DNA from: Planctomycetota bacterium
GTDB lineage: Bacteria > Planctomycetota > Phycisphaerae > Phycisphaerales > SM1A02
Assembly (NCBI GenBank): GCA_024230295.1
Contig: JAAERN010000092.1
Coordinates: 1-62,123 of the forward strand
Direction of reading: 5' to 3'
DNA: 62,123 nucleotides
Shown: positions 6,341 to 36,603 of the stretch, one piece after another
Numbering within the stretch: the first letter of the stretch is position 1
Layout: every line of letters starts with the position of its first letter
The notes under the pieces: model-generated
Seen by the model: the letters and a program-made list of their open reading frames with translations, nothing else
The model's database searches: none
What the model was told of the DNA's origin: nothing
Translations under genes and position numbers: made by a program

Positions 6341-6580
6341 GGGGTGATTCGGTGCGCAGGCCAATCGAGGGCTGCCTGCTGGTCTACAGCCCCACTTCTC
6401 CAGTGCAAAGCCCCCATAATTCAACACCACAATCCGGACTCTCGCCGCTAGAGTGGAAACCGAGCACGTCCAAGCAATCAGAAACTGATTTGAGGATCTA
6501 GGATCCCTTGCGTCAGATACTTCGAACCTCTTTCGTACTGATTGCTCTGGAACGCAAGAATTATGAGGAGAGGCCATATT

Positions 6581-8671
6581 ATGTCGTTCAGTACCCATGC
6601 TCTGGCAACCATTCTGCTCTCAATCGCTGCGATGCCCGCCGCTGCCCAGATGGCAACACCGCATCTGGAAACCCGAGAGGTTCGCGTTGCCAGCGGCGTA
6701 CTCCAGAACGACACTGCCGCGGCAGCGACTGTGTTCAGTCACCTCATCTCAGCCCCAGGGGCATCCTCAATCCAATTGGGCTTCGGTCGTACCAAACTCA
6801 CGCAAGGCAGTTTGCTGCGATTGACCTCCCTCACCGACGGCGCCATCCAACATCACACGGCAAAGACACTTCGTCAGTGGCAGCACTGCAGCGCATGGTT
6901 CAACGGTAGCCATGTCCTCGTTGAACTGGTCATGGATCCAACGGCAGCACCGTCGCATGTTTCGATCGATCGGACGATCTCCATGCGCGGTATTTCGGAC
7001 GACCGATCTATCTGCTACGGCGTCGATGATCGCGTTCTGAGTTATGACGACCGGAGCGGTCGCGTCGCCCCAATCGGTTGCTCCGGTTGGCTGATCGATG
7101 ACCCCGCCCATCAATTCCTCACTGCCGGGCATTGCATGGACAACCTCAGCGTTGTGGACAGCATGGAGTTCAACGTGCCGCTCAGCAACAGCGACGGAAG
7201 TTGGAATCACCCCGGCCCCGAGGATCAGTACGCCATCGACCACACATCGGTGCAATTCACCGACAGTGGAATCGGCAACGACTGGTCTTACTACGGTTGC
7301 TTCCCAAACACCGAGACCGGCATGACCGCCTATCAAGCCCAAGGCACATCGCATATTCTCGCCGCAGCGCCCCCGGCAGTCGATGGTCGCGACATCACGA
7401 TCACCGGATACGGCTCAACGAGTAGCCCGGTCGACCCTACGTGGTACGGCGTCCAGAAGACGCATACTGGCCCCTACATGCATTTCACAGGAAACAACAT
7501 CGGCTACCAAACCGATACGACCGGCGGCAACAGTGGCTCACCCGTGCTTGACGAAGTCACTGGCATGGCAATCGGAATTCACACGCACGCCGGCTGCGAC
7601 GGAAGCGGCGGCTATAACAACGGTACCGCGATCAGTCACTCTGATCTGCAGTACGCCCTGGCGCATCCGCTTGGTGTGTGCATCCCAAGTATGCTGGTGC
7701 TTGGCTTCCCCGATGGCCGGCCCATTTCGGTTCTACCAAGCACCCCTACGGCGGTGCGATTCAGCGTTGAGCCCGGTGACGATACCCCCATCATCGATAG
7801 CATTCGATTTGTCATGACCATCGACGGCGTTGAAGGGGATCTGCCAGTCACGCCGGTGGGAAGCGATATCTACAAAGTCTGGATTCCAGGCCTGACCTGC
7901 GGCCAGATTGTGAGTTACTACATTTCAGCCACCAGTGAGAGTGGTTTGGTCGCGACGCTTCCCATTGATGCGCCCGACACGCAGTACGAACTCCTCATTG
8001 GCGAATTGGTCGAGACAGTGCTGCTGGAAACCAACTTTGATGCGGGGCTCCCCCCCACATGGTCCGCTGGTGGCTTGTGGCACTCGGCAACCACTGCCTG
8101 CGTTGATACCGGTGGCTGCGGCGACGGCACGGTGATGTACTTTGGCATAGACAGCAGTTGCACGTTTGATACAGGAGTAGCCGTTGCTGGCACGATCTCA
8201 TCGGAGGCCATTTCGCTCAGCGGAATCGCCGGTCCATTCACACTCACCTACTGCACCGCACTCGAAACTGAAAACGACACCGGCTGGGATACCGCTCGCG
8301 TGCTCGTCAATGGCGTCCTCGTCGAACAGCCGCCTGAGGGGGACTGGCAGACACGGACCATTGAACTGCCGACGATTAGCGGCGACACGCTGACGATTGC
8401 CTTTGATTTTGACTCGGTTGACAGCTTCCTCAATGACTACAGAGGTTGGCACATCGATCACGTGCAACTGGTGGCTCGAAGCATCGACTGCACTGATCCT
8501 GATCCGTGCCCAGCGGACATCGACGGAAGTGGCGATGTGGGAACCGACGATCTCCTACAACTCATCGCCGACTGGGGCGCCACGGACAGCCCGGCCGACA
8601 TCAACGGCGACGGCGTCGTCGGCACCGACGACCTGCTCGCTCTGATCGCCGCATGGGGAGACTGCGGGTAG
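6581..8671 (+). CDS. Secreted trypsin-like serine protease with dockerin-like tail
   Basis: 696 aa. The start at 6581 is fixed by a strong ribosome binding site, GAGGAGAGG at 6565-6573, and gives a clean signal peptide (MSFSTHALATILLSIAAMPAAAQ region). Catalytic residues are readable: His in LTAGHC near 183, Asp in GNDWSYYG near 231, Ser in TGGNSGSP near 315. A beta-rich region (about 370-640) follows, the last part resembling a jelly-roll binding module. The C-terminus holds two Ca-binding dockerin-like repeats (DIDGSGDVGTDDL and DINGDGVVGTDDL), each ending in an xWG motif; such tails are common on exported planctomycete proteins. It is related to the protease at 60900. It probably leaves the cell by the secretion system at 22-35 kb, but that is inference. 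Confidence 0.85.
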   Translation: MSFSTHALATILLSIAAMPAAAQMATPHLETREVRVASGVLQNDTAAAATVFSHLISAPGASSIQLGFGRTKLTQGSLLRLTSLTDGAIQHHTAKTLRQWQHCSAWFNGSHVLVELVMDPTAAPSHVSIDRTISMRGISDDRSICYGVDDRVLSYDDRSGRVAPIGCSGWLIDDPAHQFLTAGHCMDNLSVVDSMEFNVPLSNSDGSWNHPGPEDQYAIDHTSVQFTDSGIGNDWSYYGCFPNTETGMTAYQAQGTSHILAAAPPAVDGRDITITGYGSTSSPVDPTWYGVQKTHTGPYMHFTGNNIGYQTDTTGGNSGSPVLDEVTGMAIGIHTHAGCDGSGGYNNGTAISHSDLQYALAHPLGVCIPSMLVLGFPDGRPISVLPSTPTAVRFSVEPGDDTPIIDSIRFVMTIDGVEGDLPVTPVGSDIYKVWIPGLTCGQIVSYYISATSESGLVATLPIDAPDTQYELLIGELVETVLLETNFDAGLPPTWSAGGLWHSATTACVDTGGCGDGTVMYFGIDSSCTFDTGVAVAGTISSEAISLSGIAGPFTLTYCTALETENDTGWDTARVLVNGVLVEQPPEGDWQTRTIELPTISGDTLTIAFDFDSVDSFLNDYRGWHIDHVQLVARSIDCTDPDPCPADIDGSGDVGTDDLLQLIADWGATDSPADINGDGVVGTDDLLALIAAWGDCG

Positions 8672-22304: not shown

Positions 22305-23963
22305 ATGGATCGAGATCCAACGCAACTCAACGAACCGCCAGAGGTCGACGAACTCGCGGAAACTCTAACTGCCGCCCAGACCATCGACGAAGAGGCTGCA
22401 GCCATTCGAGAGCGTGCCGACCTGCTCGGCCTCACGTGGCACGAACGACCGGTCGAAGCGAGTGAGGAAGCCATTGTCCTCGTTGATCCGGACGTCGCCG
22501 TTCGACTTCGAATCGTACCGATCGACCGCAGTGGCGATCGGCTCGTGCTTGCGATGTTTGATCCGCTGGACACTCAAGCCGCCGACGAAATCGCCGTCTT
22601 GACTGGGTGCGTCGTCGATCGACAAGGCATGGAACCGGGGATCTTCGCCGAACTGCTTCGGAAGCACTACGGCACGACCGCCTCAAAGATGGCCGACCTG
22701 TTGGGCGGTCAGGCTGATGCCGACGACAGCGATGCCGAGCATAATCTTGCCGCCTTTGAAACCGATGACATCCACCGGATGGCCGAGGAACCAACTCTCG
22801 TCAATCTGGTGAATCTGATTCTGATCGAAGCCATTCAGTCGCGGACGAGCGATGTGCATGTCGAGCCGTTCGAACAGGAATTGACCGTTCGATATCGAAT
22901 TGACGGCGTCCTGCACATGCAGCCTCCTCCCCCCAAACACCTGCAACCTGCCCTCATTGGCCGTATCAAGATCATGGCTGGCATGAATATCGCGGAGCGA
23001 TACGTTCCGCAGGACGGCAAGATCTCCCTGCGGTACGAAGGTCGAAAAATTGACATTCGTGTGTCGACCGTTCCCACGCTCTACGGAGAGTCGGTGGTCA
23101 TGCGTATTCTCGACAAGAGCCAACTCCGGCTTGATTTCGACACGCTCGGCTTGCGACCTGAACTTCAGGCTGACATGGATCGACTCCTCGCGAAGCCACA
23201 CGGCATCCTTTTGAATACGGGACCGACCGGGTCCGGCAAGACTACGACGCTATATGCGTCACTCACCCGAATCTTCGATCCCAGCAAGAAGATCATCACG
23301 ATCGAGGATCCCGTCGAATATGAGTTGCAGGGCATCAATCAGATTCCAGTCAACGCCAAGAGAGGTCTGACATTCGCGTCGGGACTACGATCCATCCTTC
23401 GTCAGGATCCGGACATTGTGCTTGTGGGTGAAATTCGTGATGGCGAGACCGCGGACATCGCGATCCGCTCGGCACTCACTGGCCATCTCATCCTTTCGAC
23501 GTTGCACACCAATGATGCAATCAGTTCGATTGGCCGGCTGGTCGATATGGGCGCGGAGCCTTATCTCGTCGCATCCGTGCTCGAAGGGTTGCTCGCGCAG
23601 CGTCTCGGCAAACGTATTTGCGAGTTCTGTCGTACCCAGATTCCCATGCCCGAGGATATCGCAGCCCGGATTCGCCCCAAAGAACTCGAGAAGTTCGATG
23701 GCAAAACATGGATCGGATCCGGGTGTGAGAAGTGCAGTGGAAGTGGCTATCGCGGCCGCGTCGGATTCTTCGAACTGCTGCGGCTTCGTGGCGATCTCCG
23801 AAATGCCATTGCCGACGAAGCGGGGGCAGCAGCAATCAATCAGAGCTTGCCGGAGGACTTTCACACGATGCGTGAAGATGGCATGTCCAGAGCCATCGAG
23901 GGCGTAACGACTGTTCCCGAGGTACTGCGAGCCACGCAGGACGCCGAGGAAGTCTACGAGTAG
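22305..23963 (+). CDS. gspE: Type II secretion ATPase GspE
   Basis: 552 aa, cytosolic hexameric ATPase that drives pseudopilus assembly. An N-terminal GspE/MshE-type domain (about 40-150) binds the inner-membrane platform. Walker A is GPTGSGKTT near residue 306; the Asp box ITIEDPVEY, Walker B LRQDPDIVLVGEIRDGETAD and the His box HLILSTLHTNDA follow. A four-cysteine zinc motif (CEFC near 438, CEKC near 473) is intact, as in GspE and PilB. The neighbouring pseudopilin and GspD genes favour GspE over PilB. Confidence 0.93.
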   Translation: MDRDPTQLNEPPEVDELAETLTAAQTIDEEAAAIRERADLLGLTWHERPVEASEEAIVLVDPDVAVRLRIVPIDRSGDRLVLAMFDPLDTQAADEIAVLTGCVVDRQGMEPGIFAELLRKHYGTTASKMADLLGGQADADDSDAEHNLAAFETDDIHRMAEEPTLVNLVNLILIEAIQSRTSDVHVEPFEQELTVRYRIDGVLHMQPPPPKHLQPALIGRIKIMAGMNIAERYVPQDGKISLRYEGRKIDIRVSTVPTLYGESVVMRILDKSQLRLDFDTLGLRPELQADMDRLLAKPHGILLNTGPTGSGKTTTLYASLTRIFDPSKKIITIEDPVEYELQGINQIPVNAKRGLTFASGLRSILRQDPDIVLVGEIRDGETADIAIRSALTGHLILSTLHTNDAISSIGRLVDMGAEPYLVASVLEGLLAQRLGKRICEFCRTQIPMPEDIAARIRPKELEKFDGKTWIGSGCEKCSGSGYRGRVGFFELLRLRGDLRNAIADEAGAAAINQSLPEDFHTMREDGMSRAIEGVTTVPEVLRATQDAEEVYE

Positions 23964-23978
23964 CCAGCGGAGTACCCG

Positions 23979-25211
23979 ATGCCCTCCTTCGAATACGAAG
24001 CCATCACCAGTAACGGCAAGCCACGACGAGGTGTCATTGAGGCCGCCAGCCGCGCAGCAGCTACGCGGGCTCTGCTTCAACGTGGTGAAACGGCGACAGC
24101 CATGGTCGCTGCCGCAGGTCCTGGAGAAGTATCCAGCAGCCACACGCGGCGATCCGCCCGATCGAGTCGCCCCTCGATGAAGCGAACTGACATCGCCACG
24201 ATGATTCGCGAACTGGCGACGGCACTTGAAGCCGGGCTGCCGCTCGTCCAGTCTTTACACACCATGCGTCGCCAGGCGACCGGGCGGGGAGCCCCTGCGA
24301 TACTCGACCACTTGATCGATCGCGTGGAGGCCGGCGAACCGCTTCACAAGGCAGCCATGACCTACGGGGCGCCCTTCGATAACCTCATTTGCGGCATGCT
24401 GCGAGCGGCGGACGCTTCAGGCGAAAGCAGTGTCATATTGCACCAACTGGCTGACCTTCTTGACCGAGGCATCGAACTGCGGCGCGAGGTACTCGGGGCG
24501 ATCTTCTACCCAATGATCATCGCCGTCCTGATTCTCGTGAGCGCCATCATTCTCGTCACGGTGCTCATACCTCGCCTGATGGAACCGCTGATCGCCGCAG
24601 GTGTCAAGCAATTGCCTCTGCCGACTCGGATCATCCTCGATACTTCCGAATTTGTGACCAACTGGTGGCTCCTGTGCGTCGCCGTGATCGTCGCCGGGTC
24701 ATTCACGTGGAAGTTCTGGATCAGTGTGCCAGAGAACAGGCTGCGTTGGGACATGTGGAAGCTCAAAGTGCCTGTTGTTGGGCGTCTTCTTCGCGATGTC
24801 GCAGTTGCTCGCTTTACTCGCACCATGGGAACACTCTCCGAAGCCGGACTTCCGCTGCTTGAGTGCCTGAACATCACTCGTGACACCTTGGTCAACACAG
24901 CCATGATGCACGCCATCGACGAAGTGCAGGCTCAGGTCACCGAGGGACGCCCACTTGCCGAACCACTGGAGCAGTGCGGGCTCTTTCCGCCGCTGTTGAT
25001 TCAGGTCGTCAACCTTGGCGAACGATCGGGACGCCTTGAGAACATGCTGGCTCACGCCGCCAATGCGTTTGATCGCCAGGTCGGGATCTCGATCAAGATC
25101 TTTACAAAGGCGTTCCCCCCACTCCTCATCATCATCATGGCCTGCCTCGGCGGGTTCGTGCTGGCAGCCATTCTTCTTCCGCTCTTGGAACTTCAGAACA
25201 TCGCCGGATGA
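23979..25211 (+). CDS. gspF: Type II secretion inner-membrane protein GspF
   Basis: 410 aa platform protein. The start PSFEYEAITSNGKPRRGVIE is typical. Two copies of the GspF helical domain (about 70-190 and 270-390) are each followed by membrane segments; three membrane spans lie near 170-200, 225-245 and 380-403. FTRTMGTLSEAGLPLLECL and NLGERSGRLENML are the family motifs of the second domain. It follows gspE after 15 bp. Confidence 0.93.
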   Translation: MPSFEYEAITSNGKPRRGVIEAASRAAATRALLQRGETATAMVAAAGPGEVSSSHTRRSARSSRPSMKRTDIATMIRELATALEAGLPLVQSLHTMRRQATGRGAPAILDHLIDRVEAGEPLHKAAMTYGAPFDNLICGMLRAADASGESSVILHQLADLLDRGIELRREVLGAIFYPMIIAVLILVSAIILVTVLIPRLMEPLIAAGVKQLPLPTRIILDTSEFVTNWWLLCVAVIVAGSFTWKFWISVPENRLRWDMWKLKVPVVGRLLRDVAVARFTRTMGTLSEAGLPLLECLNITRDTLVNTAMMHAIDEVQAQVTEGRPLAEPLEQCGLFPPLLIQVVNLGERSGRLENMLAHAANAFDRQVGISIKIFTKAFPPLLIIIMACLGGFVLAAILLPLLELQNIAG

Positions 25212-26271: not shown

Positions 26272-26783
26272 TGGGGCCTCACAAAGCACATCTCAGACTT
26301 CCGATGCGTGACCGCCGTGGCGTCGCCCTGCTTGAGGTCATCATCGCGGCGCTCATGCTCGGCGTGGGCCTCGCTGTCACGCTCTCAACCGCCGCACAGG
26401 CACTCCGGTCGGAACTTACCGGCGAGCGACGTCTGACAGCCACGTGGCTTGCCGACGAAGCGCTCGCACTTGTACTGGCTCAAGGCCCACGCAAATACAT
26501 GCTCACCGAGCCGATGGAAGGACGATTCCAGCCACCATTCGAGGAGTTCGATTGGATCCTGGACTTAAACCAGCCAAGTGACTGGGAGGCATGGAACGCA
26601 TCCGCCACCGTGAGTTGGAGAAATCGATCCGGCACCATGTCGGTCACGATCGATACCCGTATCGCTCCTCGGCAAGGCGACGAAGACGATGCCAGCAACT
26701 GGAAGCCGCTGGAGATGTTGGATCGCGAAGCGAGAACGTGGGATGAGGATGACGCCCAACCACTTGAAGGCGGCGGATTATGA
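26271..26783 (+). CDS. gspI: Minor pseudopilin GspI
   Basis: 170 aa. Prepilin signal RDRRGVALLEVIIAALMLG, with Glu+5 of the mature protein, then a hydrophobic helix. The short globular domain ends in an acidic tail (about residues 135-165). The ATG at 26271 overlaps the gspH stop; ATGs at 26253 and 26304 are alternatives, the latter giving a more usual short leader. Identity as GspI rests on order (between gspH and gspJ) and on the short length. Confidence 0.8.
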   Translation: MGPHKAHLRLPMRDRRGVALLEVIIAALMLGVGLAVTLSTAAQALRSELTGERRLTATWLADEALALVLAQGPRKYMLTEPMEGRFQPPFEEFDWILDLNQPSDWEAWNASATVSWRNRSGTMSVTIDTRIAPRQGDEDDASNWKPLEMLDREARTWDEDDAQPLEGGGL

Positions 26784-27763
26784 GCGGCTTTCAACCCGCC
26801 CATAGAAGGCAAAGGCATCGGCGTGGGTTCACGATGGTGGAGTTCATCCTCGCCGCCGTGCTCCTTGCGGCTGTGCTGCTTGGCATGACCGTCGCGATGC
26901 AGCAAGTCATCAAGTCTCGCAACAAGGCTCGCGGACGAATCGATGCGTACATCCGAGCCGATGCAGCATTGCGAATGCTCCGCCGCGATCTTGCATCGGT
27001 ACTTCGACGCGAGGACCTCTACTACACGAGAGTGCTTCTCGAAGATCAGGCCATCGAACAGGACCGCATGAGCCTCGATCGCGATGAGATCCTTGTCTTC
27101 AACAATCGCCTACAGGCGACGAGGGACATTGAGTACAACGGCGATGGCCTGGAGTTCGAAACCCAGTATCGCATCGAATCAGATGATTTCGGCCCGGCGC
27201 TTTGGCAGAGGCGAGACGCAATGCCAGACGCCTACCCTCGCGGCGGTGGCATCGTCTCACCGGTTGTGGAAGGCCTCATCAGTCTTCAGATCGAAGCATG
27301 GAACGGTATCAATTGGTTCGATCAGTGGGACAGTGATGAAGAAGGCCTTCCATGGGCACTTCGGATCACGGTAACTGCAACTGGCGCAGCGATCGGCCAG
27401 AGTCCAACTGAACATCCACTTGCAATTCTTCGCACCGTTGTTCCAATCGATCGAAGCCGCATGCCGTTGGAAGTCGCAGATGCAAGGCTCGCCGAAGACA
27501 TCATGGATCGCTTCGGACTCGGGCAGGATCAGTACGACACCATTGTCGAGGCAATTGCCTCGGGCAATCCGCCGCCGATCCCTCGCACCACGGGCGGCGC
27601 TCCCGGTGCCGGACTCGACGCTGGAACAGGCGGTGCTGCTGCCGGATCTTCGGGCGGAGGCAGCACAACGATCGACACACCCGCAGGGAAGGTCACAATC
27701 CCAGGCGACGGCAGCACCCCGACTTTCAACGGCGGCACAGGTGGATCCGGGGGACGGCAATGA
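26780..27763 (+). CDS. gspJ: Minor pseudopilin GspJ
   Basis: 327 aa, overlapping gspI by 4 bp (ATGA). The prepilin site is HRRGFTMVEFILAAVLLAAV. ADAALRMLRRDLASVLRRED after the helix is typical of GspJ. The final 75 residues are Gly/Ala/Pro/Thr-rich (about 250-327) and look like a disordered extension absent from most GspJ, which are near 200 aa. Together with GspI and GspK it should form the pseudopilus tip. Confidence 0.82.
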   Translation: MSGFQPAHRRQRHRRGFTMVEFILAAVLLAAVLLGMTVAMQQVIKSRNKARGRIDAYIRADAALRMLRRDLASVLRREDLYYTRVLLEDQAIEQDRMSLDRDEILVFNNRLQATRDIEYNGDGLEFETQYRIESDDFGPALWQRRDAMPDAYPRGGGIVSPVVEGLISLQIEAWNGINWFDQWDSDEEGLPWALRITVTATGAAIGQSPTEHPLAILRTVVPIDRSRMPLEVADARLAEDIMDRFGLGQDQYDTIVEAIASGNPPPIPRTTGGAPGAGLDAGTGGAAAGSSGGGSTTIDTPAGKVTIPGDGSTPTFNGGTGGSGGRQ

Positions 27764-29094
27764 ATTCGTCACGCCGAGGACTTGCCATGGTGGCGGTGCT
27801 GTGGGGCATCACAATCACTGCCCTTCTTGTGTCAGCGCTTCTTGTCGGAACAACCCGCATGTCTATGCTTGGCCGTGACACGATGGAGCGCGTTCGTGCG
27901 AGATGGGCGGCGCGGGCAGGTGCCGAGGCGACAATTGCCACGCTCGCCTACCACACGCAGTACCCGATGGCAGACGACGCCTATGCCCTCGTTCGTGATT
28001 TGGAAGCAGTTCACGCTGGCGAAGTTTCGGGCGGCACATGGCTGATCCAGCATGTCAGCGGCGATACGTCGCGTCCGTTTGCTGGCCCGCAGGACGAGCA
28101 TTCAAAACTCAACGTCAACGGACCATACCGCGGGTACATCGATGTAATGTTCGGCCCCTTGGCATGGGGCGTGTTTGCCGCAATCGAAGACTGGATCGAT
28201 GAGGATGACGAGCCGTCCGAATTCGGCGTGGAACGAGACTATTACCTCTCTCTGGATTCTCGATATGAGCCCCGCAACGCCCCCTTGCAAAGTATTGCTG
28301 AACTTGAGTTGATTGCGGGCATCGAGCCCAACGACATCCGAGGCGAGGACTGGAATCTGAATTCCTTGCTAGATCCCTCCGAAGACGATGGCGATGAGAC
28401 GCTTCCTTGGGATAACGAATCCGGCATCCTCGACGGCGGCTGGGCACGAATGCTGACGGTCAGATCAGCCGCTGACGGTGCGACCCAAAGTGGAGCGCCA
28501 CGGATCTGGCTGATGGCCACAGATGCCGCTGAGTTGATCGAGCGATTCGACGTCTTGGGTGTTGAACTCACGGAGGAGAAGGCGGAATCCTTGATCAACG
28601 ATGCCGTGGGCGGAACACTCGATCCGACCGTTCTGGTGACGTCACTCGGGGTAGAACCCACCCCTGCGGATCCAAACCAGGAAGAGGAGGAGAGTCAGGA
28701 GATCATCTGGACGCCCGACGAGGTTGCCGTCATCCTCTCAGAAACCTCCGTATCTCCACCCCATCGCCGAGATTGGGGAGGAATCAACGTCAATACTGTC
28801 AGCTCAGAGACGCTCTACGCCATGTATGACGGCGATGAGCGGCTTGTGGAGGCCCTCCTGAGCCTCCGGACGAGGCGAGCCAACGGCCTGACCAGCCTCG
28901 TAGATTTCTGGGATCTCCCCGGAGCCACTCAAGAGAGTTTGGCGCAGCTCCTGCCCTTGTTCTGCACCGATAGCAGCGTCTTCTCGATTACTTCGCGTGG
29001 AAGAAGTGACGTAACTGACGAGGTGTCAGAAATCAATCTGGTGGTCGATCGTTCCACGCTGCCTGTGCGAATTCTCGAATACCGCGAGAACTGA
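27760..29094 (+). CDS. gspK: Pseudopilus tip protein GspK
   Basis: 444 aa, overlapping gspJ by 4 bp. The signal RRGLAMVAVLWGITITALLV lacks the Glu+5, as is usual for GspK, the tip subunit. ARWAARAGAEATIATLAYH follows, again family-typical. The large domain contains a helix-hairpin-helix-like segment, INVNTVSSETLYAM and LPGATQESLAQLLPL, near residues 345-400, and the end FSITSRGR. An acidic segment at about 290-320 is an insertion. Confidence 0.88.
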   Translation: MNSSRRGLAMVAVLWGITITALLVSALLVGTTRMSMLGRDTMERVRARWAARAGAEATIATLAYHTQYPMADDAYALVRDLEAVHAGEVSGGTWLIQHVSGDTSRPFAGPQDEHSKLNVNGPYRGYIDVMFGPLAWGVFAAIEDWIDEDDEPSEFGVERDYYLSLDSRYEPRNAPLQSIAELELIAGIEPNDIRGEDWNLNSLLDPSEDDGDETLPWDNESGILDGGWARMLTVRSAADGATQSGAPRIWLMATDAAELIERFDVLGVELTEEKAESLINDAVGGTLDPTVLVTSLGVEPTPADPNQEEEESQEIIWTPDEVAVILSETSVSPPHRRDWGGINVNTVSSETLYAMYDGDERLVEALLSLRTRRANGLTSLVDFWDLPGATQESLAQLLPLFCTDSSVFSITSRGRSDVTDEVSEINLVVDRSTLPVRILEYREN

Positions 29095-29096
29095 TC

Positions 29097-29180
29097 ATGG
29101 GTCGCCCGCATCCCTCGGTGGATGGTCCTCGACGGCTGATCGCGGCGAGTCCTCTTCGGATATCCTTCAAGCCCCGATGA
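29097..29180 (+). CDS. Tiny ORF (27 aa) coupled between gspK and gspL
   Basis: The only real gap inside the late secretion operon (82 bp) is filled by an ATG frame that starts 2 bp after the gspK stop and ends in an ATGA overlap with gspL. The peptide begins MGRPHPSVDG and is basic. gspL has no visible ribosome binding site of its own, so translation of this ORF may deliver ribosomes to gspL. It may also be an accident of the gap. Confidence 0.35.
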   Translation: MGRPHPSVDGPRRLIAASPLRISFKPR

Positions 29181-31198
29181 GCAGGCTGAGCCCCGATTCG
29201 TCATCCTCAGGCCTTTCAGAGGCCTCCGCATCTGCCGTTCTCCACTGGGTTGACGGCGGCTGGAGTGCCGTCCGCTTTGAGCCAAATGCCGCCGGGATAC
29301 ACATTCTCGAGTACGCACGCCTTGAAGAGCGTTCGGTTTCTCAGTGGTTGGGCGACGCCGCTCGGGCCACCCGCGTTGTCATCCCGGCTCGCGTCACCGT
29401 GGCTCGGTCCATGCGACTCGGACACGGAAATGAATCGGCGTTAGATCATCGACTCCAAGCACAGATTCAGGATCGCATGGACGACTCGGTCCCAATGCAT
29501 CGGATGGCAGCCGCGGTTGCGCCTGCGATGCCTAGCGAGGAAGATCGAACCGGTATCGCAGTCGCATGGCCGGAACGGCAGAAAGTGCGGTTTCCTGGTC
29601 AGACGGATGAATTCCTCGGTGTTCCGGATATCGCAGCGTTACTGTCACTGATGGGCCGCCAGCGTGTTGACTTGCCGATTCTTTGGCATGACGCATCCGA
29701 TGGAAGTACTGCGTTCGTTCTCGCGGGACTCGGCCGCATGGCAGTTCGTTCGACACGTATGGATAGCCTTGCTGCACCCGAAGCGTTGTCACGATTCATC
29801 ATGGAATCAGCCTTGCAAGCGGGTTGGTCCGCGGCCGAGATGCGGTCACTTGGTGAACACACCGAATCTATCAACCAAGATGGTCCCACGCTAATACTTC
29901 CAGATTCGATTCGTACTGCTGGATTGCAGCGAGTCCAAGGCGACATCCCGGAAGATCTGGGGAACTTTGGCATTGCAATCGGTTGCGCACTCGCAACAAC
30001 GGACGACTACGCCGCGATGACGGTGCTCCGTCCCTCCCTTCCGACACATGAAGCAACCCGAGGCGAGCGAATCATCGAGAAGTTTTCTGATCGGTCATTT
30101 GCCGCCAAGCTGGCAGTTGCACTGGTCCTGCTCATTCTCTTCGGGCCCCTCGTCACAAATGCAATTCGCTACGGGCTTCTAAGCCTCTCCCATGGAAACC
30201 TGGATGAAGCAGTGGGCACAGCCGCAACGGTTGAGCAACGAAACACGCTGTATGCCAACCTCGGGTCTGGTGCGCTTCCTGTGACAAAACTGCTTGCAGA
30301 TGTCGCCTCGGCAACCCCACTTGGAATCAAGGTTGACAGCATCAAGATGGGCACTGGTGAGCCGCTACGAATCAATGGTGACGCAACGGCGTACAATGGC
30401 CAGTCTGCGGCTGAGCTGATCGGGATCATGAAGTCGCACATGCAGGTGTCCCGGGTGTTCAAGAATGTGACCGTCGAGTGGGACGGGCAGACAAATCTCG
30501 GCGAGCGATCATTCTCGCTGTCTGCCGACATCGCTACGGCAGCCATCCGCCCGCGTTACGACGCCGAGCAAGACTTTGCCGCGTGGACCTTCCAGCAGCG
30601 ACGACACAATCTCCCCAACACAGCCGAAGGTGGTCCGGCGGCGCGGCCAAGTGAGGCGGCCAAATGGGATCCGAACAAGGTCGCTCCAGCAGCAACCGAT
30701 GGTACGCCGCAGCCGGAGCAAACAGCGGCCGCCAATCCCTCCGCTACGACCCCTACCCCGCCTCGCGTCACTGGAACTCCCCAAGCCACGACAACCACTC
30801 TGGATGGTGGCACCTCTGGGCCTGTGCAAAAGACACATCCGCCTGCCTCCACCACACCTCCGACAACTGTTCCACGCCGTTCGGGCAGCACCGCTGGAGG
30901 CAATCGACCGGACCGATCCGGAGGCGGACTCTCTGCACGCGATACGGGTTCAGGAAGTATTGCTGATCAGGGAGCAAGAAGCGGCGACCTCTCCGCCGGA
31001 GATCTCGGTGCGCTGCCAGAGATGCTAAGCAAAGAGCAGATCAAGGTGCTTTCACGCGAAGAAACGCTTGCCAGGGTTCGGGAGGTTTCTGCCGCCAGAC
31101 AGCACATCCCCCCTGGAGAGACTGCCGACGAATTGCTCGCCTATTGGCAGGATCTCTTTAACCATCTGCGGAGCTTGCCTGCGGAGGATGGCACGTGA
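29177..31198 (+). CDS. gspL: GspL-like inner-membrane assembly protein
   Basis: 673 aa, long for GspL (about 400). The N-terminal 300 residues resemble the actin-like cytosolic fold of GspL/PilM, which holds GspE. A membrane segment follows at about 309-332 (FAAKLAVALVLLILFGPLVT) and then a ferredoxin-like periplasmic domain (about 340-460). The extra 170 residues (450-620) are Pro/Thr/Ala/Gly-rich, low in complexity and probably disordered. Sequence similarity to GspL is weak; the call rests on layout and position before the GspM-like gene. Confidence 0.7.
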   Translation: MSRLSPDSSSSGLSEASASAVLHWVDGGWSAVRFEPNAAGIHILEYARLEERSVSQWLGDAARATRVVIPARVTVARSMRLGHGNESALDHRLQAQIQDRMDDSVPMHRMAAAVAPAMPSEEDRTGIAVAWPERQKVRFPGQTDEFLGVPDIAALLSLMGRQRVDLPILWHDASDGSTAFVLAGLGRMAVRSTRMDSLAAPEALSRFIMESALQAGWSAAEMRSLGEHTESINQDGPTLILPDSIRTAGLQRVQGDIPEDLGNFGIAIGCALATTDDYAAMTVLRPSLPTHEATRGERIIEKFSDRSFAAKLAVALVLLILFGPLVTNAIRYGLLSLSHGNLDEAVGTAATVEQRNTLYANLGSGALPVTKLLADVASATPLGIKVDSIKMGTGEPLRINGDATAYNGQSAAELIGIMKSHMQVSRVFKNVTVEWDGQTNLGERSFSLSADIATAAIRPRYDAEQDFAAWTFQQRRHNLPNTAEGGPAARPSEAAKWDPNKVAPAATDGTPQPEQTAAANPSATTPTPPRVTGTPQATTTTLDGGTSGPVQKTHPPASTTPPTTVPRRSGSTAGGNRPDRSGGGLSARDTGSGSIADQGARSGDLSAGDLGALPEMLSKEQIKVLSREETLARVREVSAARQHIPPGETADELLAYWQDLFNHLRSLPAEDGT

Positions 31199-31773
31199 GC
31201 GAAAAGCAAAAAGTTGCAGAGCGAATCCAAGCCGAGTTCGGCGCGATGTCTCAAGGCGGACGCCTCATCGTTGTCTTGGGTGGAGCACTTCTCCTGTTCG
31301 TAGTCTGGTCTGAGTTGGTCTCACCAATCTCGACGAGCTGGGGAGAATCTGCAGATGCAATTACCGAACAGGTCGATCGCGTAGACCGTGCGGCATCTCA
31401 GGCGAACTCGCAGCGATCCAACGTCATCGCATTCGGGCCTCTTACACCACCCTCACAGCGGGCCCCAGAGTCTCAGGCCATGCTCGAGGCAGTCAACACC
31501 ATCATGGCTGAGTATGACATCCGAGATTACGAATTCAACGAAGCCGCCAGCGCAGTCAGCTTGGGAGGCGCCACCCTCAGGGGAATCGATCGAATCAAAG
31601 CAACGCTAGATTTCGAAGCTGAGCACGAAAAAGCCATCGAAATTCTCGGTGCCCTCGAAGACAGCCCCGAACTTGAGGCGATCAGCAATGCCCGTGTTCA
31701 GGTCGGCAAGTCGGCAAGGAGTCTCGCCGTGCAAGTCACCATCGAGGCATGGATCCGGGAAGGACGCCGATGA
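31195..31773 (+). CDS. gspM: GspM-like inner-membrane assembly protein
   Basis: 192 aa, overlapping its neighbours by 4 bp on both sides. A short cytosolic start is followed by one membrane segment at about 22-43 (RLIVVLGGALLLFVVWSELV), a helical linker and a small ferredoxin-like domain (about 95-190). This is the layout of GspM/PilO, the partner of GspL. Family motifs are weak, so the identification depends on topology and position. Confidence 0.7.
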   Translation: MSEKQKVAERIQAEFGAMSQGGRLIVVLGGALLLFVVWSELVSPISTSWGESADAITEQVDRVDRAASQANSQRSNVIAFGPLTPPSQRAPESQAMLEAVNTIMAEYDIRDYEFNEAASAVSLGGATLRGIDRIKATLDFEAEHEKAIEILGALEDSPELEAISNARVQVGKSARSLAVQVTIEAWIREGRR

Positions 31774-32486
31774 TTGACCGCGATTCTCTTCGTGGCCCAC
31801 TCGGAGTCAGCTTGGCCTGCGCTCTGGGGCTCGTGATTGTCGGACTTTGGCTTCTTGTGCCTGTTCTCGGCTCACTGGTATCGCTTGGCGGTGGCAACAG
31901 CCTTGATGAGGCCACCTATGAGAAATTGATCGCGTCACATGATGTGGCACACCGGACAGATCTCAACCGTATCCACGGACGATCATTCTTCTTCGAACCC
32001 AAGGCACCGCCGAAACCCAAACCGCCAGAGCCCACAGGGGCCTGCTGCGTCGATGAAGAGTGCACGATCATGCGCCGCGACGCATGCCGCGCCAGAAGCG
32101 GCCGTTGGCAGGGCACTGACACCACTTGCGGCCCCGACACATGCAAGCCCACAGAAGCTCCCAAGCCTGTAGAACAACCAAAGATCGACACTCGGCCAAA
32201 GCGTTATGACGGCCCTGAGATCATCGCCATCTACGGCTCCGACGTGTTCTTCCGCTCAACAAAAGGGATGTTGGTGATTCCCGTCGGCCACGGCATGGAT
32301 GACATCGAGGTTGTCTCAGTCAATGCACCACGAAGTGCAGAACTGCTGTGGAAGAAGGGCGGCCCATTTACAGTTCCACTGATCGACAAACCGGAAGACC
32401 CTTGGCAAGAGAATCCGCTTCGAGGGGTCCTTGAACTTCCCTCGACGCCGCCAATACGGGTCATCGATGAAGGACGTCCTGAATGA
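31770..32486 (+). CDS. GspC-like secretion protein with six-cysteine module
   Basis: 238 aa. One membrane segment at about 14-38, then a periplasmic part. Residues about 88-128 form a cysteine module starting TGACCVDEEC and containing six Cys (ACC, EEC, DAC, TTC, DTC), flanked by Pro/Lys-rich linkers. The following domain (about 148-215, IIAIYGSDVFFRSTKGMLV) resembles the beta-rich HR domain of GspC that contacts the secretin. It overlaps the GspM-like gene and gspD by 4 bp each, just where a GspC would be useful. The cysteine module recalls GACC-type modules of exported planctomycete proteins. GspC identity is inference. Confidence 0.6.
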   Translation: MIDRDSLRGPLGVSLACALGLVIVGLWLLVPVLGSLVSLGGGNSLDEATYEKLIASHDVAHRTDLNRIHGRSFFFEPKAPPKPKPPEPTGACCVDEECTIMRRDACRARSGRWQGTDTTCGPDTCKPTEAPKPVEQPKIDTRPKRYDGPEIIAIYGSDVFFRSTKGMLVIPVGHGMDDIEVVSVNAPRSAELLWKKGGPFTVPLIDKPEDPWQENPLRGVLELPSTPPIRVIDEGRPE

Positions 32487-35386
32487 TCACGTTTGACAGG
32501 ATCTCCAAGGAATACAAGCCGGGATGCCGCGTTGGCATGCCCCGGTTGATGAGAGGACTTCTCGTGCCAATGAAACCCACTGTCACATGTCACGTTCTGG
32601 GATCGCTCTTGGCGGTAGCAGTATCCACATCGGCTATTGCGCAAGACGGCCGACCGGAACCCACCGAGCCACCTGCTCCCGAGCCTGTCGTCATTGAACC
32701 GGATCCGATTGAAGAAGAAGTCGATGTCCAAGTAGAGGATGAGACCGCGACTGCGGATCCCGTGGCCGAAGCCGAGGACGCAATCGAGATTGTTCCAGAG
32801 AGTCCATCCGATGAAGTGGATGCCGAAGAACCGGTCGAAGTCGTCGTCTGGAGTACCGAGGGGCTCAGGTCCGGCCGCCGCGCCGTCAAAGACGAGCCGG
32901 TCGTGCTTGCTTTCAAAGAAGTGAAGTTGGATGAACTCATCGAGTTCATCGCGCTCGAAACCGGCAAGGTCGTCATGCCAATCAAACTCCAGACGGCAGG
33001 TGCGGCAGGACGGAACACATACAACATCGTCGCCGATCGACCGATGCCTCGAACCGAGGCACTTGACTTCATCTTCACCTATCTGCGGATGAACGACATC
33101 GGAATCATCGAACGGCCTCAGGTGATCTTCGTCGGCAAACTTGAGGATATGATTAGCCAACTCGGCGAAGTCGAAGTCATCTCGGCGAGTCAATCCATCG
33201 CCGACCGAATGGATCGCGGAACGCTGGTGTTCAAGATCTTTCAGGTCACCAGCACCGACGCGGGCCAGATCAAAGATGACCTCGATGACTTCTTCCCTCA
33301 GAATTGGGCCAAGTTCCGAGAGGACGATCTTTCCAACCAGATCATGGTGCTCGGCGATATTGGGCTGTGCCAACAGATCGAAACGATCATTCATGATCTG
33401 GATCGCAAGTGGCTGCAGCCGATCATCAAGACGTTCCGGCTGGAGTACGCCGATGCCCGCGAGATCGAAACCAACATCATGGAACTCTTCGAGCAGAGTT
33501 CGGGCACCCGAACCTCGAGTGGCAATTCCGGAAACCGTGCCAACCGGCAGAACAACCGATCGAACAACAATCGCAGCAATTCGGCAGCGACCTCACTCGA
33601 AGGCGTTCCCGAGGCAGAGTTGCGTCTCACCGTCAACGAACAACAAAACACTGTCACCATTCAAGGTGAACAAAAAACAGTCGATGAAATCGCCGGGCTC
33701 ATACAGACCGAGTGGGATCTTCCTCGCCCGGAAGGCACGTCGCGTCTGTTCATTCTTAAGCACACCGATCCCATCAAGGTCAAGGATCTTCTGACGACCG
33801 TACTCGGCGGTGGTTCCTCCTCCAGCGGCGGAACCGGCGGGCGCAACAATCGAACCGGCGGAAATAGCGGTTCTCGCACTGACGCCACAGCCGGCATCGC
33901 AGGCGTCTACCAGTTCGAAGCCTTTCCCGACCGCAATGCCCTGCTTGTTCTCGCCAAGACGGAGCAGAGTTTCTCATTCATCAAGAGTGTGATCGAGGAC
34001 ATCGACCAGGCGACCGACGCCGGACTTCCGGAAGTAATCCCGCTGAAGTACGCCGACGCCGTCGCGCTCACCGAAGAACTCAACATCCTGCTCGCCACAG
34101 CCGGAGCCCGAGCCTCGTTGCCTCGCCCGGCAACCGGCCTGAGCGCCGTAGGGTTCTCGGCCGATGGTGGCTCGGACGTCAGTGGCCCAGATACGACTGG
34201 CCAGGCAGGCGATCTCCAGTTCCCTTGGGGAACAGCCAACAGTGACGAGCAGTCACCGGAGTCGACACTCATCGGCAAGGTCCGGGTCGTACCGATCGTC
34301 CGCCAGAATGCCCTCGCAATCCTCGCGCCGACAGCCTACCGAGAGCCCATGCGAAAGTTGATCGAAGCGTTTGATCAGCCCCGCCGCCAGGTGATGCTAT
34401 CCGCGACGATCGTGGAGGTTGACCTCGGAGACGCACTCAACCTCGGCATGCGACTCGGAACTGGATGGGAGCCGGACACCGGTGCCATCGTCTCGGGCGG
34501 CATCAACTTGGACCTCGGCGCGATCAGTTTCATCACCAACATGCTGAACGGAACGCAATCAAACTCCTTGACGCTTGGCCCCTTCGGCATCAACGTCATC
34601 ATCGAGGCCCTCAACTCAATCACCAACACCCGTGTAATTCAAGAACCTAGGGTCTTCACAGCCGACAACGAGGAGGCTGTCTTCTTCTCCGGGCAGGAAT
34701 ATCCGATCGCGACAGGGTCGGTCGAGGGTGGCACAGGTCTCCAGAACCTCACGACGACCATCGAGTACAAAAACGTCGGTGTCTTCCTGAACGTCAGACC
34801 TCGCATCACCGAAGAAGGCGCGGTGGATCTTGCCATCAGCCTCGAACTCTCACAGGCAAAAGGCGCTGTGAACGTCGGAAACACTCGGAGCGAGATTTTC
34901 GATCGCAAGCAAGTTACTACTCACGCAATTCTTCTGGATGGCCAGACAATCGTCCTTGGCGGCCTGCTTAAAGAGTTCGAACAAATCCAGCGGGATCGCA
35001 TCCCGCTCTTGGCGGACATCCCATTCATCGGTCAACTCTTCGAATTCAATAGCGAGAACCTAACGCGGACAGAACTGATCGCGTTCATTACACCGACCGT
35101 CGTCCATCGGCCCGTCGACAACTTCGACAACTTTAATCTGGATGACTTGTCTCGACTTGAATCCGTTGCGCAGCCACTGGCCGAGCAGCTTAAGGAGGGG
35201 CAGAAAGTCGTCGACCTCAACATTCATGAGCGACTTCAACACCGCGCCGTTCAGCATGGTGGTTCGCGAATCGTCCTTCCCGGCGAATCGAAGATCGAAA
35301 CGGAGATCGATACGTTCCAGCCAACCCTGATTGAACTGACCCCACGGGGCAGCGACAAGGTCAAGGACCAGGACGGTAGCGAGTGA
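32483..35386 (+). CDS. gspD: Type II secretion outer-membrane secretin GspD
   Basis: 967 aa, long for GspD (650-750). The frame starts at 32483 in the upstream overlap; an ATG at 32570 begins a clear signal peptide (SLLAVAVSTSAIAQ). After an acidic Pro/Glu linker come the periplasmic N-domains (about 145-620), each with an (x)LxxADAxEI-like pattern, then the secretin domain from about 630 (MLSATIVEVDLGDALNLG) with VIQEPRVFTADNEEAVFFSG, the gate region and LADIPFIGQLF. Asn/Ser/Arg-rich (about 340-370) and Gly/Ser/Asn-rich (about 445-470) inserts lie in the N-domains. It forms the outer-membrane channel. Confidence 0.93.
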   Translation: MITFDRISKEYKPGCRVGMPRLMRGLLVPMKPTVTCHVLGSLLAVAVSTSAIAQDGRPEPTEPPAPEPVVIEPDPIEEEVDVQVEDETATADPVAEAEDAIEIVPESPSDEVDAEEPVEVVVWSTEGLRSGRRAVKDEPVVLAFKEVKLDELIEFIALETGKVVMPIKLQTAGAAGRNTYNIVADRPMPRTEALDFIFTYLRMNDIGIIERPQVIFVGKLEDMISQLGEVEVISASQSIADRMDRGTLVFKIFQVTSTDAGQIKDDLDDFFPQNWAKFREDDLSNQIMVLGDIGLCQQIETIIHDLDRKWLQPIIKTFRLEYADAREIETNIMELFEQSSGTRTSSGNSGNRANRQNNRSNNNRSNSAATSLEGVPEAELRLTVNEQQNTVTIQGEQKTVDEIAGLIQTEWDLPRPEGTSRLFILKHTDPIKVKDLLTTVLGGGSSSSGGTGGRNNRTGGNSGSRTDATAGIAGVYQFEAFPDRNALLVLAKTEQSFSFIKSVIEDIDQATDAGLPEVIPLKYADAVALTEELNILLATAGARASLPRPATGLSAVGFSADGGSDVSGPDTTGQAGDLQFPWGTANSDEQSPESTLIGKVRVVPIVRQNALAILAPTAYREPMRKLIEAFDQPRRQVMLSATIVEVDLGDALNLGMRLGTGWEPDTGAIVSGGINLDLGAISFITNMLNGTQSNSLTLGPFGINVIIEALNSITNTRVIQEPRVFTADNEEAVFFSGQEYPIATGSVEGGTGLQNLTTTIEYKNVGVFLNVRPRITEEGAVDLAISLELSQAKGAVNVGNTRSEIFDRKQVTTHAILLDGQTIVLGGLLKEFEQIQRDRIPLLADIPFIGQLFEFNSENLTRTELIAFITPTVVHRPVDNFDNFNLDDLSRLESVAQPLAEQLKEGQKVVDLNIHERLQHRAVQHGGSRIVLPGESKIETEIDTFQPTLIELTPRGSDKVKDQDGSE

Positions 35387-36603
35387 TGAATCGCCGGTGC
35401 TGCATTCTGATTCTCGCTGCCATTGCGATCCCAAGTTGTCATGAGTCGAAGTGGCCCAAACGAACACAACTGACAGCATCGCAGGCTCAGGCAATCAACG
35501 AGATTGCTTCACGGCAGAACGAGATCAACGACGCCACCAAGGGTGCCTTCCGGGGAGAGGTCTGGACGGTTGGTGCCATCCCTTGGAATGCAACCGTCAT
35601 GCCGATAGCCAGCCCCCAAGGCCGCTGGATTGCGACCGCCTCCGGCACTGCCCCCAGCAACGCGTGCCTGATGGCTTTGGACGGCTCCCTTCCACCCACC
35701 GACAGTGAAATCGAAATCTGGGAACTGCTCCCCGGGTTCTCCGGCGCTAGGCATCAGACGACCCTAACCGCCCCCCTCCTGTTGACGAATGCAGCGGATG
35801 CCGAGGGCTTTCTCGTGGAAGCGCCTCAATCAAATGGCTCTCGGTGGATCGGAAAGGTCGACTGGCGAACAGGCACGACTACATGGCTGGTGCAGGATGA
35901 TCAGGTCAACGCCATGCCGACGCTGGGCCCTCAGAATCGACTGGCATGGTCAACTCGCTCACGCGACGAACGATTGTTCTCGCTCGCAGTTCGCTTCCAA
36001 GATGGCCGCGAGTTCTCCATTCCCTCGAATGGATCGGATTGGCTAATCCCAACATGGAGCTCTCGCAGCATGCGCCTCTCAGCATGGCGGCTGAGCCCAG
36101 AAGGCGTCTTGAGATTGATCTCGATGGATGCCACGGATTCTCAGACACTGACGCAGCCAGCAAAGCAGATCTCGGTCATGACCGGAGCATCTCGCTGGGA
36201 CGCCTTTACGGCGACTGGGAACCAGACATCGGTTCAAGGGCTCGCCCCTCCGCCCGTCGAAGAAGTCATGTTCTACCATCCGACACAGCAGCGTATGAGT
36301 GTCTGGATGCCCACGGGAATCAATTCCGATCAACTCGTGTCGCTCGCTCCGGACTCGATCGACGCCGTTCACGATGATCAGGGCAACTTTCTCCTGACCC
36401 TTCCGCGAGGGCTCCACTGGCAGAGCCTCACCGACCTTCGCAACATCGTGAGAGTAGACCACATTCCGGTCTACGCCCGGCCGACGACCGATCCCATGCG
36501 CCCGTTCATGCTTCTGGATCCAGGCAGAAACGTCGTTCGGATCCGTGGCATGCGTCCTGCGCAGCAGCCGACAGACAGCACCAAGATCACATCCGGGAAC
36601 TGA
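35383..36603 (+). CDS. Lipoprotein-like propeller protein ending the secretion operon
   Basis: 406 aa, overlapping gspD by 4 bp. The N-terminus (CCILILAAIAIPSC) looks like a lipoprotein signal, though Pro at -2 is unusual. The body has repeated beta units ending in short aromatic patterns (MPIASPQGRWIATASGT, MPTLGPQNRLAWSTRSRDE, IPTWSSRSMRLSAWRLSPEG), as in TolB/WD-type propellers. It may be an outer-membrane or periplasmic partner of GspD, a role pilotins and accessory lipoproteins fill elsewhere; no similarity to a known pilotin was seen. Confidence 0.65.
   Translation: MMNRRCCILILAAIAIPSCHESKWPKRTQLTASQAQAINEIASRQNEINDATKGAFRGEVWTVGAIPWNATVMPIASPQGRWIATASGTAPSNACLMALDGSLPPTDSEIEIWELLPGFSGARHQTTLTAPLLLTNAADAEGFLVEAPQSNGSRWIGKVDWRTGTTTWLVQDDQVNAMPTLGPQNRLAWSTRSRDERLFSLAVRFQDGREFSIPSNGSDWLIPTWSSRSMRLSAWRLSPEGVLRLISMDATDSQTLTQPAKQISVMTGASRWDAFTATGNQTSVQGLAPPPVEEVMFYHPTQQRMSVWMPTGINSDQLVSLAPDSIDAVHDDQGNFLLTLPRGLHWQSLTDLRNIVRVDHIPVYARPTTDPMRPFMLLDPGRNVVRIRGMRPAQQPTDSTKITSGN

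Follow-up and report, generated by a model that had tools for sequence, protein, structure and literature searches.

A six-cysteine module of exported planctomycete proteins in the proline-rich arm of a divergent GspC

How a type II secretion system (T2SS) selects its cargo has long been an open question; among the components known to matter is GspC, a clamp connecting the platform in the inner membrane with the secretin. The question is raised by a gsp locus of a Planctomycetota bacterium (Phycisphaerales, SM1A02; contig JAAERN010000092.1), analyzed here within a stretch of DNA of 62,123 nucleotides that we call the window. An initial annotation of this sequence had placed a GACC-type module with six cysteines between proline-rich linkers of a GspC-like protein encoded just upstream of gspD, and had suggested that, if the machine and its cargo carry the same module, it might serve in substrate recognition. 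What is this module, where does it come from and what could it do in a secretion clamp? The module in GspC is real, conserved and of a single apparent origin, and it is a variation on GspC, not a separate kind of system. Here a component of the machine has gained a domain of a family that is otherwise seen in exported proteins, and a ready comparison is provided by near relatives with a module-less GspC. The result most worth pursuing is the match between this bacterial module family and the iRhom homology domain (IRHD).

The genes of the gsp locus lie on the forward strand in the order gspE-F-(G-H-I)-J-K-(L)-M-C-D, those in brackets being assigned by position. The genes gspE (22305–23963; PF00437, E = 1.3e-126) and gspF (23979–25211; PF00482, E = 1.4e-49) are followed by a gene for a GspJ-like pseudopilin (26780–27763; PF11612, E = 1.5e-4, below cut-off; PF07963) and by gspK (27760–29094; PF21687, E = 1.4e-12; PF03934, E = 2.3e-6). 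The next gene (29177–31198) is called gspL-like only from its position between gspK and gspM; its product has a long Pro/Thr/Ser-rich linker and gave no Pfam match and no useful NCBIfam match. The stop codon of the gspM-like gene (31195–31773; PF04612, E = 0.0013, and NF040576, E = 1.1e-5, both below cut-off) is overlapped by the ATG of the gspC-like gene (31770–32486; 238 aa), the 3' end of which overlaps gspD, the secretin gene (32483–35386; PF00263, E = 2.5e-43; TIGR02517, E = 9.3e-98, slightly below cut-off). In the loci of relatives, gspC adjoins gspD wherever GspC was matched. A further gene (35383–36603) overlaps the end of gspD; its product has a lipoprotein-like signal at its start (AIPSC, by eye) and no Pfam match, and is possibly a pilotin or another part of this T2SS.

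The window GspC is very divergent in sequence: among curated profiles, it gave no Pfam match at E ≤ 1 and none of relevance in NCBIfam, and a Foldseek search with its full-length model returned nothing at E ≤ 0.001. By its predicted fold (AF2) and gene order, it is a genuine, divergent GspC, because it combines a transmembrane (TM) helix with an HR fold that can be aligned with its counterpart in E. coli GspC. The protein consists, from the N- to the C-terminus, of a single hydrophobic TM helix (residues 10–39), an arm helix, the motif HGRSFFF, a first proline-rich linker (residues 76–88; 31995–32033), the six-Cys module (residues 89–125; 32034–32144), a second proline-rich linker (residues 126–145; 32145–32204), a six-stranded HR domain (residues 146–205; 32205–32384) and a disordered tail (residues 206–238; pLDDT below 50), with no PDZ match in a Pfam scan. 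In VIA alignments, the modelled HR domain, aligned across residues 145–205, matched that of E. coli GspC (3oss_C) with a Z of 7.6 and an rmsd of 1.9 over 59 aligned residues, those of PulC (6hcg_e) and LspC (7oio) with a Z of 5.6 each, and PilP (2lc4) with a Z of 5.9; secretin binding by this domain is predicted from the fold only. A PilP or lipoprotein identity is rejected, since a TM helix is present and Cys17 is variable, being Ala in L092 and L094–L096. Like GspC, PulC, OutC and EpsC of known systems, the window protein has an N-terminal TM helix, an HR fold and a gene located between a gspM-like gene and gspD; unlike them, it carries a six-Cys module before the HR domain, and no PDZ domain or coiled coil was seen after it. 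A C-terminal PDZ domain or coiled coil is common in GspC proteins but not universal, LspC having neither.

Sequence and predicted fold thus agree with the initial annotation on the nature and setting of the module. Its proposed span, 32034–32157, is right at the start and too long at the end: the module stops at 32144, and the remainder is the beginning of the second linker. The module (TGACCVDEECTIMRRDACRARSGRWQGTDTTCGPDTC) is flanked by KAPPKPKPPEP and KPTEAPKPVEQPK and follows the pattern GACC-x4-C-x7-C-x13-C-x4-C, with cysteines at residues 92, 93, 98, 106, 120 and 125. It is predicted to form a β-hairpin (89–94/97–102), in which the Cys2–Cys3 loop is V94-D95-E96-E97, followed by a helix (103–108) and a strand (112–116); pLDDT is about 84–90 for this stretch of the GspC model and averages 83 when the module is modelled alone by AF2 without templates. 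Disulfides between the cysteines are predicted, and a VKOR protein encoded in the genome (match over cut-off) makes oxidative folding plausible.

The same module recurs in exported proteins, as the initial annotation had supposed. The genome assembly (2.7 Mb in 180 contigs, 97.6% complete) yielded 39 matches at E ≤ 10 to the window module used as a single query, 11 of them at E < 0.002 with its own copy included, and exported proteins were found at E-values down to 6.4e-6. Together with the pLDDT and the presence of six cysteines in all ten module-bearing GspC, these values argue against a chance arrangement. A profile built from 32 modules gave 37 matches (all scored), and the window module matched the module profile at E = 5.1e-14 with six cysteines in register, the profile having GspC rows among its members. 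Twenty regions of the genome were fetched and 19 ORFs with modules were read, 12 of 18 having two to five copies by a regular-expression pattern. A permissive home-made test detected a signal-peptide-like start in 17/17 ORFs with an uncut N-terminus and also in 4/12 cytosolic controls; restricted to Met starts, it was positive for 15/17 and 2/12, respectively. Among the ten proteins scanned were M12-like metalloproteases, a glucose/sorbosone dehydrogenase, one β-helix and one FG-GAP protein and another with a weak likeness to trypsin; the six-Cys module itself gave no match to a Pfam or NCBIfam family in the proteins scanned. An EF-hand or dockerin-like segment was recognized at the C-terminus of 16/19 ORFs by eye and of eight by regular expression, and four of the ten scanned proteins matched Pfam Dockerin_1 and one NF041540, all below cut-off. 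By profile, the GspC module is the same as that of the exported proteins of Phycisphaerales; unlike GspC, these proteins have signal-peptide-like N-termini and acidic modules, often in several copies, and usually end in the EF-hand or dockerin-like segment. The module is widespread: it was found in 107 of 201 sampled genomes of the order Phycisphaerales (profile, E ≤ 1e-3) and in 13 of 294 genomes of a phylum-wide sample (E ≤ 1e-4), eight of the 13 lying outside the order, and 212 different copies were collected.

The distribution of the module in GspC is much narrower. A genome scan found ten loci with the module-bearing type of GspC, all in metagenome assemblies of Phycisphaerales; in nine, GspC spans the module site and has the six cysteines, and the tenth ends at a contig edge just before the module. 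A search of 181 genomes of the family with a profile of this GspC gave full-length matches in 7/9 genomes of the same genus, the other two being draft genomes with no full-length match among those listed, and in 3/3 genomes of one other genus. The nine genomes of this search other than that of the window are the nine scanned loci, so the independent total is ten GspC from two related genera, all with the complete six-Cys module. The module was absent from all of the 47 other GspC read across the order (30, one from G171, four and 12), none of which has more than five cysteines in its whole open frame, the five-Cys frame (L104) beginning far upstream of the gene. The idea that relatives share the module in GspC holds for two close genera (10/10) and fails for the other GspC read from the order (0/47). 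The module is nonetheless present both at this site in orthologues and in exported proteins of the same genome, where the initial annotation needs it to be.

A single origin in GspC fits these data. In a tree of GspD sequences (43 rows, with duplicates L081–L083, the short row L089 and row L087, which has undetermined bases, left out), the module label changes once, on a branch with support 99/98. The sister row of the module-bearing clade, L084, lacks the module, and in the genus closest to this clade in the tree the GspC linker is bare at the module site (five GspC read). Five of the 34 rows scored as lacking the module were first labelled by default, no GspC having been found by blastp; all five GspC were later read and have no module. 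The tree is consistent with one gain of the module, in the ancestor of the two related genera, although an earlier gain followed by losses may also account for the pattern.

The module family may also bear on a domain of the iRhoms, which are membrane proteins of animals and regulators of a shedding protease. When an 86-row profile of the module (A4) was compared with the sequences of the PDB, the four distinct matches at E ≤ 10 were all iRhom1 or iRhom2 (E = 2.5e-4, 3.1e-4, 3.6e-3 and 4.2e-3 for the whole sequences; 0.0086–0.048 for the full-module stretches). In each iRhom sequence, one match covers the full module and keeps the six cysteines in register, and another is partial; in iRhom2, these lie at 571–606 and 469–494. 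A smaller first profile (A1) had found the iRhoms at E = 0.045–0.082, with isocitrate lyase at 1.7, so the larger profile improved the match; PDB searches with the single GspC sequence and with a four-row GspC profile gave nothing useful. The predicted structure points the same way. A Foldseek search with the module-only model returned ten chains at E ≤ 10, headed by iRhom1 (9xy4; probability 0.93, rmsd 0.8 over 29 columns, TM 0.51, E = 0.63) and iRhom2 (8snl; probability 0.54, E = 2.7), neither value being significant alone. VIA comparison of this model with 13 chains gave four with a Z of at least 2, all of them iRhom entries (2.8–3.3). With the full-length GspC model, iRhom2 residues 568–626 were aligned to GspC residues 89–133 in the register of the sequence profile, with a Z of 2.9 and at rank 17, unrelated chains scoring slightly higher. 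In a permutation of the loop columns between the cysteines (200 trials), the iRhom2 segment scored 26.8 bits versus a permuted mean of 7.8 and maximum of 19.1, and the iRhom1 segment 23.6 bits versus a permuted maximum of 18.1, which indicates that more is shared than the spacing of the cysteines.

The GACC module thus resembles the iRhom modules in sequence and in predicted fold, with modest statistics; common ancestry is likely, and convergence may be the alternative. The GspC module and the IRHD (8snl, 9o58, 9xy4, 9q7y) have the same order of cysteines and a similar predicted fold, and both are membrane-proximal on the extracytoplasmic side. The IRHD differs in being larger and in joining TM1 to TM2 of a seven-TM rhomboid pseudoprotease, whereas the window GspC is a non-rhomboid protein with one TM helix and a single module. 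In the published account, the IRHD is stapled by eight disulfides, is called a buttress of ADAM17 and resembled no structure found in the PDB or among predicted human proteins (PMC11248996); a bacterial family would offer a possible origin for it, define its smallest unit and point to a contact surface that can be tested. The same account names D475 as the residue through which iRhom2 retains the ADAM17 prodomain, and reports that a cysteine bridge introduced at D475 or at the nearby S477 likewise kept the prodomain bound (PMC11248996). Both residues fall in the Cys2–Cys3 loop of the first iRhom2 module (469 GCCVQNDHSGC 479), and the fit of both residue names supports the numbering. No bridge to the iRhoms was found in rhomboids of relatives: the module was absent from all 13 rhomboid-like ORFs picked by a filter from 30 fetched loci, a count confined to loci in which the filter detected such an ORF. 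Literature searches of open-access PMC texts listed no paper recognizable from its title and abstract as dealing with the GACC module or with a bacterial relative of the IRHD.

What the module does in GspC is best discussed from the reading that we tentatively prefer, at somewhat less than an even chance: a rigid knob for protein contact on the clamp arm, recruited from exported proteins. A small extracytoplasmic, disulfide-stapled fold, strung along many planctomycete exported proteins, would have entered the proline-rich arm of GspC through a single domain-shuffling event in the common ancestor of two related marine Phycisphaerales genera, and would have been retained as a single copy ever since. 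From its place in the periplasm, with the membrane on one side and the secretin-binding HR domain on the other, it would offer the tip of its Cys2–Cys3 hairpin to a partner, either an exoprotein awaiting export or another part of the machine, much as the IRHD modules above the membrane touch the ADAM17 prodomain. The contact function and the identity of the partner are both proposals, and the reading overlaps with recognition of cargo and with bracing of the machine. It is favoured by the invariance of the six cysteines in 10/10 GspC, by low dN/dS values (0.08–0.13 for the module and 0.03–0.16 for the HR domain, from three pairs whose synonymous sites are nearly saturated), by the specialisation of the GspC copy at Arg103, by the likeness to iRhoms, with D475 and S477 in the matching Cys2–Cys3 loop, and by the known effect of GspC accessory domains on the secretion of some substrates. 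The specialisation is suggested by the occurrence of Lys or Arg at the Arg103 site in just 7/194 modules of exported proteins, versus Arg in 10/10 GspC modules. The precedent for accessory domains is the PDZ domain of EpsC and OutC, likewise added to GspC, which is reported to affect which substrates are secreted and to be required for some of them (PMC12369372). Unlike the window module, this PDZ domain has an unrelated fold and is placed after the HR domain, as are the substrate-selecting accessory domains known so far, which counts against a contact function, as does the statistically modest iRhom match (Foldseek E = 0.63 and 2.7; VIA Z = 2.8–3.3). Recruitment on a single occasion in one clade also implies that the module is dispensable for T2SS elsewhere.

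Conserved cysteines alone would suit equally well an inert spacer, the main rival, according to which a disulfide bead in a tolerant linker merely lengthens or stiffens the clamp arm and has no partner. This is a real possibility, if a less probable one than the contact knob. It is consistent with the position of the module in a proline-rich linker that is bare at this site in the nearest genus (five GspC), and with one gain in one clade. The charge of the module also seems to follow its compartment: GspC modules have a net charge of −3 to 0 (mean −1.3, n = 10), versus a mean of −4.9 for modules of exported proteins (n = 213), of which 22/213, and 0/41 from the window genome, are at −1 or above, and the difference is attributed to the compartment because the rest of periplasmic GspC is equally neutral (−1.9 per 100 aa). 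Against a spacer, positions other than cysteines are conserved: Arg103 and Gly111/115 are as invariant as the six cysteines in the alignment of 10/10 module-bearing GspC, and an acidic residue precedes Cys98 in 10/10. Mean pairwise identity across GspC is 0.59 both for the module and for the HR domain, versus 0.48 for linker 2, although linker 1 is more conserved still (0.74).

Homotypic recognition of cargo, in which the GspC module would bind the same module of exoproteins and sort them into the T2SS, is improbable. It presumes that the module proteins are exported by this T2SS. The module is carried by the machine and by exported proteins of one genome, accessory domains of GspC can affect substrate choice, and the near-neutral GspC modules could be matched to the acidic exported ones; charge complementarity was considered and set aside, as the compartment explains the difference. 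The distribution argues against it: the module occurs in 107/201 genomes of the order and was found in GspC in just 4/201, so module proteins are widespread without a GspC copy, and the nearby genera G084, G193, G117 and G075 each have at least 36 module matches and a GspC without one. Substrate recognition as the general mechanism suggested by the initial annotation is thus rejected as a rule, many module-bearing genomes having a bare GspC; recognition confined to the module-bearing clade is possible. A brace, in which the module contacts the secretin, GspL/M or the cell wall and not cargo, would suit its place on the arm, beyond the inner-membrane helix and ahead of the secretin-binding HR domain, and the description of the related iRhom2 domain as an ADAM17 buttress (PMC11248996), but related genera manage without it, and this alternative is similarly doubtful.

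The contact-knob reading can be extended to both families. The IRHD would then share its ancestry with the GACC module and would have been built from a bacterial extracytoplasmic module, the module would be a knob for client contact in general, and the GspC of this clade would engage exoproteins through the Cys2–Cys3 tip, as the D475 loop of iRhom2 holds the ADAM17 prodomain. Taken as a whole, this extension is unlikely.

Several other observations concern module-bearing and exported proteins. A long series of modules was seen outside the order, in the planctomycete G316, where a 692-aa ORF (C226:73708–75597) contains 15 consecutive GACC module matches. Many genomes of the genera g2, g7, g11, g15 and g23 have exactly three matches; in G002, all three lie within one 699-aa ORF (C31:31937–32410), and these genera perhaps share one conserved three-module protein. 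The window itself encodes a trypsin-like exported protein (6542–8671) that lacks the module and has two EF-hand/dockerin-like repeats at its C-terminus (CPADIDGSGDVGTDDLL...); this tail is of the type borne by most of the module proteins.

The GspC proteins of the family vary in other regions. The GRS motif (HGRSFFF in the window, residues 69–75, 31974–31994) directly precedes the proline-rich linker, and the variants FNGRSFFF, FDGRSAFF and FEGRSMYS recur in GspC of the family; the motif looks older than the module, because it is present in GspC with and without it. Extra lineage-specific regions follow the HR domain in GspC of related genera (L084, L184–L187, L086 and L110), with a stretch SGWPAGT.AGD...RYRQGPYE... 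at the C-terminus in G084 and G289–G292 and a helical-looking stretch in G117 and G075, and the GspC of these genera looks as if accessory domains are swapped.
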